Source: a virus
IMG/VR virus record: IMGVR_UViG_3300017772_000075
Coordinates: 1 to 29,480 of that record
DNA: 29,480 bases
Reading direction: 5' to 3' (one strand)
In this document: in pieces, positions 18,840 to 22,052 of the stretch
Position numbering within the stretch: the stretch's first letter is position 1
How the letters are laid out: every line of letters begins with the position of its first letter
Translations under genes and position numbers: made by a program
Notes under the pieces: model-generated
The model's input: the letters and a program-made list of their open reading frames with translations, nothing else
The model's database searches: none
Told to the model about the DNA's origin: nothing

Positions 18840-20915
18840 ATGGCTATATTAGTTAACGATACGACTCCCAGAAACCAGTACACTGCATCTGCTGGGCAAA
18901 CAGTATTTGCTTACTCATTTGAAATATTTGAAGTAACAGATATTAAGGTGTTTAAAGGATCAACTCTTTTAACTTTTGCAAGTAGTCCATCAGGTGTTAC
19001 ACAATATTCTGTATCTGGTGCTGGTACAACTGGTGGTGGTAATATTACTCTCGGAGGTGGTGCTACTGTAAATGATATTTATACTATAGTACGTGACATA
19101 CCAGTTAAAAGAACAACAGACTTTCCGTTATCTGGACCATTTGTTATTGACAGTTTAAATACTGATCTTGATAAAATGATTGGAATGATGGGTGAAAGAG
19201 AAGATGAGATATCAAGGTCAATAAGACTAAAAGATGAAGACCCTTCAGCAACATTAACATTACCATTAAAAGCAGATAGAGCAAGTAAAGTACTTACATT
19301 TAGTAGTACAGGTAATGTAGAAACTTCTATTACTGCAACAGATGTAAGCACAGTTGCTGGTATATCAAGTAACATAACTACTGTAAGTGGTATAGCTAGT
19401 AATGTAACTACTGTTGCTGGTATTTCTAGTAACGTAACTACAGTAGCTGGTAAATCATCAGAGGTTACTTCAGTGGCGGCAGTTGCTAGTTTAATAACTT
19501 CTGACTTTGTAAGTGATTTAAATACATTAGCAGTTACAGATGTAATAAATGACATCAATACATTAGCAACTAGTGATATAGTAAGTGACTTAAATACATT
19601 AGCAACATCAGATATTGTTAGTGATTTAAATACTTTGGCAACAAGTGATATTGTTTCTGATATAAACACTCTTGCTACAAGTGATATAGTAAGTGATTTA
19701 AATACACTTGCTACAAGTGATTTTGTATCAGATTTAAATACAATAGCTACTTCAACAAACGTAAATAATATTGCAACAGTTGCTGGCAATAACTCAAACA
19801 TAAACACAGTAGCTGGTAACAATTCTAATATTTCTACTGTAGCTGGAATATCAAGTAATGTTTCTACTGTTGCTGGTATTACAAGTAATATTGCTACAGT
19901 AGCTGGTATATCAGCAAATATAACTACAGTTGCTGGTAACAATGCAAACATAACTACATTAGCTGGCATAAGTACAGATGTAACATCTCTTGCAAGTGCT
20001 CTTGCATCTACTACAAATTATGCTGTAACAGTTGCTAGTGGTACATTGTATGGTGGTGGTTCTGGTAATGTATTTTATTTAGATGGTACAGGTAATCCAG
20101 CTATTACTTTAACAAGAGGTAATACATATGTATTTGATCAAAGTAATTCTAGTAATAGTGGACATCCTATAGCATTTAGAACAAGTACAGATGCAAGTTA
20201 TACTACAGGTGTAACTTCTACTGGTACTCCTGGAAATGCTGGAGCAAAAACTACGTTTGTTGTACCTTCAGATGCACCAGCTTCGTTAAAGTATTATTGT
20301 ACCTCACATGGAAATGGTATGGGTAATGTTATTACTACAAATACATCAAATATAAATGTTGTTGCTAGTAATATAGGAGAAGTAAATAGTTTTGCACAAA
20401 GATATAGGGTAGCTAGTAGTGATCCTACGGCATCATTAGATGAAGGTGATCTAGCTTATAATAGCACAGCTAATGTTCTTAAATATTATAATGGATCAGC
20501 TTGGGTAACTATAGTTGCTGGTTCTTTAACAGATGTAGTACAAGATGGAACTCCTCAATTAGGTGGAAATCTTGATGTTCAGACAAATTCAATAATATCT
20601 ACATCTAATAGAGATATTAATATTACACCAAATGGATCTGGTAATGTAGTTTTAGACGGAATAAGTTATCCTTCTAGTGATGGATCAGCAGACCAAGTTC
20701 TTAAAACTGATGGTTCTGGAACAATTAGTTTTGGTACAGTACAAGCAAGTGAGTTGACAACACAAGGAAATTACTTTAGTAATTATAATAGTGTAAGTAG
20801 TGATGTTACATCAACAACAGCCAGCACAAAGAACGCATTTCTCTTTGGACCGATAACTGTAAGTGGTAGTTCTACTTGGACTGTAAGTGGTAATGGCACA
20901 TTAGAAATATTTTAA
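18840..20915 (+). CDS. Modular tail fibre with cupredoxin-like domain
   Basis: TTAAGGAT precedes ATG 18840. Residues 1-150 are the T7-type fibre N-terminal attachment domain (TPRNQYTASAGQTVFAYSFE, VRDIPVKRTTDFPLSGPF, NTDLDKMIGMMGE). Residues 171-380 are short tandem repeats, described separately. Residues about 393-500 form a beta domain with a complete type 1 copper ligand set: H442, C487, H490, M494. Residues about 573-635 are a module also found in the next gene (QLGGNLDV, ITPNGSGNVVLDG, VLKTDGSGTISFG). The C-terminal 50 residues are Ser/Thr-rich, likely trimerisation or tip. A fibre role is clear; the ligand it binds is not known. Confidence 0.92.
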   Translation: MAILVNDTTPRNQYTASAGQTVFAYSFEIFEVTDIKVFKGSTLLTFASSPSGVTQYSVSGAGTTGGGNITLGGGATVNDIYTIVRDIPVKRTTDFPLSGPFVIDSLNTDLDKMIGMMGEREDEISRSIRLKDEDPSATLTLPLKADRASKVLTFSSTGNVETSITATDVSTVAGISSNITTVSGIASNVTTVAGISSNVTTVAGKSSEVTSVAAVASLITSDFVSDLNTLAVTDVINDINTLATSDIVSDLNTLATSDIVSDLNTLATSDIVSDINTLATSDIVSDLNTLATSDFVSDLNTIATSTNVNNIATVAGNNSNINTVAGNNSNISTVAGISSNVSTVAGITSNIATVAGISANITTVAGNNANITTLAGISTDVTSLASALASTTNYAVTVASGTLYGGGSGNVFYLDGTGNPAITLTRGNTYVFDQSNSSNSGHPIAFRTSTDASYTTGVTSTGTPGNAGAKTTFVVPSDAPASLKYYCTSHGNGMGNVITTNTSNINVVASNIGEVNSFAQRYRVASSDPTASLDEGDLAYNSTANVLKYYNGSAWVTIVAGSLTDVVQDGTPQLGGNLDVQTNSIISTSNRDINITPNGSGNVVLDGISYPSSDGSADQVLKTDGSGTISFGTVQASELTTQGNYFSNYNSVSSDVTSTTASTKNAFLFGPITVSGSSTWTVSGNGTLEIF
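19350..19979 (+). repeat. Tandem 10- and 12-residue coding repeats in fibre shaft
   Basis: Inside the fibre gene three repeat blocks follow each other. Bases 19350-19469 code four copies of a 10-residue unit (TVAGISSNVT-like). Bases 19503-19754 code seven copies of a 12-residue unit (DIVSDLNTLATS-like). Bases 19770-19979 code seven copies of a 10-residue unit (IATVAGNNSN-like). The DNA is less conserved than the protein, with many synonymous changes, so the repeats are selected at protein level and are not very recent. They probably build a fibrous shaft. Because of this repetition a long antisense frame is open here, which I reject as a gene. Confidence 0.92.
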
Positions 20916-20924
20916 GGAGTAAAT

Positions 20925-22052
20925 ATGGCAAGCACAATTAAAGTAGATAAAGTACGAGGAGCGGCTAGTACGGAAGTTAAGCTAGATGGAAACTTAGATG
21001 TAAATGGAAACAGTATTGTATCTGCATCTGATGGCAATATAGCTATAACTCCAAATGGTTCAGGTAAAGTAATAGTAGATGGATTATCATTACCTACTGC
21101 TGATGGTACTAATGGACAATTTTTAAAGACAGATGGATCAGGAAACATATCCTTTGGAAGTGTATCATCTGATGTTAGTGGAGATTCAAGTCCTCAACTA
21201 GGTGGTGATTTAGATGTTAATGGCAACTCGATTGTATCAACATCAAATGCAAGTATAAACATTACACCCAATGGTACAGGAGATGTAAATTTAGGTGCTG
21301 ATACAGTAATGGTTGGTGACAATAATGTTAACGCAATAGTTACTACTCAAGGTACAGGTGATCTTACACTTAGCACAAACTCAGGTACAAATTCAGGAAC
21401 AATAGCAATAGCTGATGGAGTAAATGGTGACATATCAGTTACACCAAATGGTACTGGTAAAGTTATTCTTGATGGATTATCTCATCCAACATCAGATGGT
21501 TCAGCTAATCAAGTTTTACAAACAGATGGTTCTGGTAATTTAAGTTTTGCTACTCCTGGAGGTGGTAAAATATTACAAGTAGTGACTGTTCAAAAAAATG
21601 ATACTTTTTCTACATCAAGTACTTCAGATACAACAGTTACAGGATTAACGTTAGATATTACTCCGTCAGCAACTACAAGTAAAATTGCTATATTTTTAAA
21701 TTTAACAGCTTGTATGGGTCATTATACTGATTCAAATGGTCAAAATAGTAATAACAGAGTAGATATTTTTAGGGGATCAACAAATATTGTTGAAGATCAA
21801 ATTACTGGTCAAGGAAGTAGAACAGGAACTTTATCTCAACATGGATACAGAGGTGCTGGTGGTAGTGTTGAAGGATTAGCTTATAGTTTAATAGATTCAC
21901 CTAGTTCAACATCTCAACAAACTTATACTGTAAAAGTAAAAGCTAGAAGCAGTACTATTTTTGTAAATAAACATTCAGATGATTCAAGCAATAACGCATC
22001 ACACACACCTAGAGGTATATCAACTTTAACTTGTATGGAGATAGGAGCATAA
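20925..22052 (+). CDS. Second fibre / receptor-binding protein, 375 aa
   Basis: AAGGAG stands before ATG 20925. The protein lacks the portal-proximal fibre N-terminus of its neighbour. It is built of repeats of one module: residues about 20-80, 91-125 and 168-210 share GGDLDVNGNSIVS, ITPNGSGKVI and LKTDGSGNISF strings with residues 573-635 of the upstream fibre. The C-terminal half (about 213-375) begins KILQVVTVQKNDTF and has an alternating beta pattern, with His and Cys near the end; this type of C-terminal knob is common in marine phage fibres. It is therefore likely a tip or side fibre attached to the first fibre. Receptor unknown. Confidence 0.85.
   Translation: MASTIKVDKVRGAASTEVKLDGNLDVNGNSIVSASDGNIAITPNGSGKVIVDGLSLPTADGTNGQFLKTDGSGNISFGSVSSDVSGDSSPQLGGDLDVNGNSIVSTSNASINITPNGTGDVNLGADTVMVGDNNVNAIVTTQGTGDLTLSTNSGTNSGTIAIADGVNGDISVTPNGTGKVILDGLSHPTSDGSANQVLQTDGSGNLSFATPGGGKILQVVTVQKNDTFSTSSTSDTTVTGLTLDITPSATTSKIAIFLNLTACMGHYTDSNGQNSNNRVDIFRGSTNIVEDQITGQGSRTGTLSQHGYRGAGGSVEGLAYSLIDSPSSTSQQTYTVKVKARSSTIFVNKHSDDSSNNASHTPRGISTLTCMEIGA

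Follow-up and report, generated by a model that had tools for sequence, protein, structure and literature searches.

Can a phage tail fibre carry a copper site? The question was raised by a virus record of 29,480 bases (the window, meaning the whole stretch of DNA that we analysed), in which the fibre had been predicted to contain a cupredoxin-like domain with a full set of copper ligands. The window encodes a podovirus structural module with terminase, portal, capsid, tail tube, nozzle and a T7 gp14-like internal protein. The nearest isolate is Pelagibacter phage EXVC031P Hodr, with which the window shares 65% identity in the terminase protein and 64% in the capsid protein; on this basis the window phage probably has a host of SAR11 type.

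The fibre is of the T7-like type, with an N-terminal attachment domain of phrog_1640 and with a nozzle of phrog_376 and a T7 gp14-family protein as neighbours in the structural module. Over residues 1–204 the fibre shares 49% identity with that of Hodr (features are collected in Table 1). The stalk is made of TVAG-type repeats, starting at residues 170–200 and 332–382, and of DLNTLA-type repeats, starting at residues 226–298 with one repeat per 12 residues. At the other end of the protein, the fibre C-terminus (20559–20735) and the 375-aa ORF next to the fibre (20925–22052) have in common the motif LGGxLDVxxNSIxSTSNxxINITPNGSG, probably a stem or tip repeat of both proteins.

Table 1. Features of the fibre gene and its putative copper site (window coordinates).
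Feature	Position	Strand	Basis
Tail fibre gene, 691 aa	18840..20915	+	ORF; phrog_1640 (tail protein) match at the N-terminus, E 1.8e-16
N-terminal virion-attachment domain, residues 1–113	18840..19178	+	phrog_1640 match, residues 5–113
Repetitive stalk, residues ~170–388	19347..20003	+	TVAGISSN-type and DLNTLATSD-type repeats
Cupredoxin-fold module (predicted), residues ~391–501	20010..20342	+	AlphaFold2 model; top Foldseek and VIA-align matches are cupredoxins
Putative first His ligand, H442	20163..20165	+	Aligned to first His ligand of plastocyanin-type profiles; His in 267/306 complete relatives
Putative Cys thiolate ligand, C487, sole Cys of the fibre	20298..20300	+	Profile alignment, residue count
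Putative second His ligand, H490	20307..20309	+	Profile alignment, residue count
Candidate axial Met ligand, M494	20319..20321	+	Conserved position; CxxHxxM relatives align with amicyanin-type Met
C-terminal fibre stem and tip	20343..20912	+	Aligned with sister phage L546, which keeps stem and tip and is without the module

The four residues of the original prediction, H442, C487, H490 and M494, lie exactly where it had placed them, with the spacing C-x2-H-x3-M. Its description of this spacing as intermediate is also correct, the loop being x4 in plastocyanin (CEPHRGAGM) and x2 in amicyanin (CTPHPFM) according to PF00127 sequences. The domain was likewise found in the expected place, but its modelled boundaries (~391–501) are slightly wider than the predicted residues ~393–500. 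In the whole 691-aa fibre there are one Cys and two His, and all three are ligands (C487, H442 and H490); M494 is the only Met beyond residue 117.

An AlphaFold2 model of the module, built with 38 relatives, was obtained with high confidence (pLDDT 97.3, pTM 0.90), with predicted strands covering model residues 3–113. As in small cupredoxins, H442 lies right before a strand, C487 ends the penultimate strand and M494 lies near the start of the last one. When the model was compared with the PDB by Foldseek, 48 of the 50 best matches were copper nitrite reductases or multicopper oxidases, laccases and CueO being among the cupredoxin matches. The top VIA-align match was residues 24–133 of 2dv6_A, with Z 9.7 and an rmsd of 2.5 over 100 residues; two-domain laccases had Z ~8.9. 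The window module matched no Ig family in a family search, and no Ig fold was present among the structure matches listed. The module is thus modelled as a Greek-key beta barrel that matches solved cupredoxins, and the predicted cupredoxin fold is near certain.

Does the module also align with known copper proteins at the sequence level? Sequence searches of Pfam and NCBIfam gave no family that matches it. The cut-off of Pfam PF00127 (Copper-bind) was not reached by the window module, and the best of 38 relatives scored E 0.1; sequence-only searches of the PDB gave plastocyanins at E 0.08–0.85, alongside antibody chains caught through the YYC motif. Profile-to-profile comparison by hhalign gave E 6e-6 against a combined PF00127 set of 28 sequences fetched from genomes, while none of the controls, one reversed and five column-shuffled, scored below 0.0096. 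Against a plastocyanin-type profile, E was 1.9e-6 with the window's own alignment and 7.5e-8 with the CxxHxxM relatives. In these alignments the His, Cys and His of the module fall on the ligands of PF00127 proteins, and in the CxxHxxM relatives all four ligands align with those of amicyanin-type proteins. The type 1 order H ... C-x2-H-xn-M is therefore present at equivalent positions, as had been proposed. Because PF00127 is not reached by score, we name the domain a cupredoxin-fold module, not a plastocyanin.

Ligand retention was counted only in relatives judged complete (n = 306). The upstream His and CxxH occur together in 257 of them and are both missing from 37, while 12 have one only (His alone in 10, CxxH alone in 2); the ligands are thus kept as a set. 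Spacing varies among the 364 unique relatives, 194 having His with C-x2-H-x2-M and 113 His with C-x2-H-x3-M. Close homologues (L002–L016) retain all of the Cys, His and Met ligands. The 14 distinct close relatives are under purifying selection (pN/pS 0.14), and their ligand codons show synonymous variation only (CAT/CAC and TGT/TGC). Since the only Cys and His of the fibre are ligands, a sister fibre has neither residue and relatives keep them, the ligand set of the module is more than chance. Three relatives (L077, L095 and L296) have Gln in place of the axial Met (HTGQG, HTNQG); an axial Gln is typical of stellacyanin-type sites.

In some more distant clades the ligands have been lost, mostly jointly, and the domain has been kept; judging from these clades, the module has value even without a metal. 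On the tree each trait, upstream His and CxxH, switches about eight times. A tree test of joint loss could draw on no more than four supported independent pairs and gave a median p of 0.25; with so few pairs the coupled loss of His and CxxH is suggestive, short of proof. Structure prediction for a ligand-less clade still gives a cupredoxin (pLDDT 88, Z 8.8 to 2dv6), so that the putative metal site is a feature separable from the fold. Metal-dependent folding, one of the roles suggested originally, is unlikely as the main role, since the fold is still predicted in this clade and a sister fibre is without the whole domain. The GMGN motif is also kept in the ligand-less clade, and because it is retained there the Met of the module appears to have a structural role too.

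The sister phage (L546) has an internal virion protein 83% identical to that of the window over the C-terminal 199 residues. Its 583-aa fibre is collinear with the window fibre except that the module is missing, and it contains zero Cys and zero His by residue count; no copy of the module was found anywhere in the 31-kb record. Hodr also has a fibre without the module, and its nozzle carries a copy with all four ligands; this nozzle is 918 aa long versus 728 aa in the window phage. By these comparisons, the module is optional and mobile. A surface decoration, not an essential structural part, is suggested by its presence in fibre, nozzle and baseplate proteins, by its clean gain or loss within the stalk and by the tip being retained in a sister that lacks it. 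We observed that the locus tags of the GenBank records of Pelagibacter phages Hodr (L537, OQ414635) and Baldr (L538, OQ414636) are swapped between them.

How widespread is the module? It was found in at least 328 of 50,697 phage records, nearly all marine; most are from phages of Synechococcus and Prochlorococcus, and some are from pelagiphages or Methylophilales (OM43) phages. Two scans of viral contigs likewise matched it, with counts that are lower bounds. The expectation that similar domains occur in marine phages was therefore borne out. Where the matches listed bore an annotation, it read tail fibre, baseplate wedge, virion structural protein or hypothetical protein; others had none. The module is contained in PHROG 677, 708, 30742 and 27200, tail families named by virion position or as unknown, in which the copper-site fold is unnamed. 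In pelagiphages Baldr and HTVC028P it lies near the fibre C-terminus. Tandem double copies in one tail protein were seen (L034, L036, L042, L043, L058, L064, L075 and L076), sometimes with a further copy in another gene of that contig, and some contigs have the module in two genes. The module was also found in a few contigs assigned to marine bacteria or archaea (L082–L095), some with frames of 2,000–3,700 residues and some with lost sites; some of these contigs may be viral.

What, then, would the module do? The reading that we hold with somewhat better than even confidence is that it is an exchangeable cupredoxin-fold stalk module in the T7-like fibre of a probable SAR11-type phage, which binds copper after release and serves as a decoration aiding engagement of the host surface. 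Seated in the fibre stalk as an exchangeable decoration, each domain would bind one copper ion via H442, C487, H490 and M494 after virions have left the cell, and the decoration would help the virion to make contact with the host surface ahead of commitment by the fibre tip and the tail. Because a complete type 1 copper ligand set is preserved, copper binding in the released particle is likely. One point against this explanation is that free copper is scarce in the reducing cytoplasm in which virions are assembled. A role in adsorption we infer solely from the location of the module in tail proteins. Host-surface contact would be the most likely benefit, judging from the analogy to phage Ig-like domains and to what the iron hypothesis proposes for phage fibres (PMC11705849). 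Two other functions, metal piracy feeding the host and electron transfer, were dropped, there being no partner gene or signal for either.

Alternatively, the module could be a cupredoxin-derived beta-barrel that is purely structural or weakly adhesive, a decoration comparable to the Ig-like domains of phage virions, with ligands that are ancestral relics or structural residues and a virion without copper. Ligand-less clades that retain the domain and its predicted fold, GMGN motifs that persist without Cys and His, and the optional presence of the module in several tail proteins are all consistent with such a barrel. Relics should decay stepwise, yet His and CxxH persist together in 257 of the 306 complete relatives, with no more than 12 intermediates. 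Also arguing against relics, the ligands are the sole Cys and His of the fibre and change only synonymously in close relatives, and in some relatives the axial Met is exchanged for a stellacyanin-like Gln. We consider a copper-free barrel possible, though unlikely.

A second alternative is that fibre-bound copper is recognised by an outer-membrane copper receptor or TonB-dependent receptor of the host, as in a Trojan horse. Against such an entry route, TonB-dependent receptors are known to be few or absent in SAR11 and in picocyanobacteria of the open ocean. Its iron version has been proposed for marine phage fibres (PMC11705849), of which it would be the copper analogue. Docking on OprC, a copper receptor, has been reported for the secreted cupredoxin azurin (PMC6907878), but with purified OprC the complex was not confirmed (PMC8610252). 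Overall, recognition of the copper by a host receptor seems improbable.

We regard as quite improbable a site that binds another metal such as zinc, or one that acts as a copper-independent redox or thiol switch tuning fibre stability. It is true that in vitro His/Cys/His/Met sites can also take up metals other than copper. Moreover, phage tails use iron in HxH sites (PMC11705849). Against this, the order and spacing of the ligands are those of a type 1 copper site, and 194 relatives have the exact amicyanin spacing. Finally, a generic Ig-like sandwich that holds Cys, His and Met by coincidence, to which the weak antibody matches of the PDB profile searches through YYC might point, was rejected as extremely improbable, because cupredoxins and not Ig domains come out on top in fold comparison, profile E-values stand apart from those of shuffled and reversed controls, and the conserved ligands are the only Cys and His of the fibre.

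What would a copper-binding tail decoration mean beyond the window? Hundreds of ocean phages have the module in their tail proteins, so copper may be carried by the particles of these phages. The extrapolation that many marine tailed phages (cyanophages, pelagiphages and OM43 phages) have copper-loaded tails used in host contact, and that virions form a copper ligand pool in seawater, is distinctly unlikely. Should the site hold copper, marine phage tails would count among the few parts of virions in which a metal centre is defined, and the proposal linking ocean viruses to trace metals would widen from iron to copper. Some existing isolates have the module in the fibre and one has it in the nozzle, which would make a direct comparison possible. 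Even without copper, the analysis gives a name to a tail module that hundreds of phage genomes label by nothing more than its place in the virion.

The fold is already known and the metal site is of a known kind, and in the titles and abstracts of the literature searched we found no description of a copper-site cupredoxin module in phage tails or virions. The module had been called unusual; this holds for its occurrence as a phage tail module, unreported in those sources, but not for its frequency, since the tails of ocean phages commonly have it. The small blue copper proteins (plastocyanin, amicyanin, pseudoazurin; PF00127) share with it the Greek-key barrel, the order H ... C-x2-H-xn-M, a Cys that closes the penultimate strand and a Met that opens the last. 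They are free secreted or periplasmic electron carriers, whereas the module is a domain within a virion protein, and in the window it has x3 spacing (x2 in most relatives), a long GVT..GTPG loop and a score short of PF00127. The closest solved fold over the whole domain is the N-terminal cupredoxin domain of 2dv6, the three-domain copper nitrite reductase of Hyphomicrobium denitrificans, in which a cupredoxin is likewise added as an extra module; in contrast to the fibre module, with which it shares 18% identity, the 2dv6 domain belongs to an enzyme.

Two comparisons come from phages themselves. Phage Ig-like domains are optional, mobile decorations of virion proteins, and the module resembles them as a beta-sandwich that comes and goes in diverse virion proteins, but it has other best fold matches and a conserved putative metal site. 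The 691 residues of the window fibre contain no HxH motif. In HxH phage fibres, those of T4 gp37 and of the marine Alteromonas phage R22Y, iron is coordinated between fibre chains (PMC11705849). Like these fibres, the window fibre has a proposed metal site; unlike their interchain iron sites, the proposed site of the module lies within one small domain.
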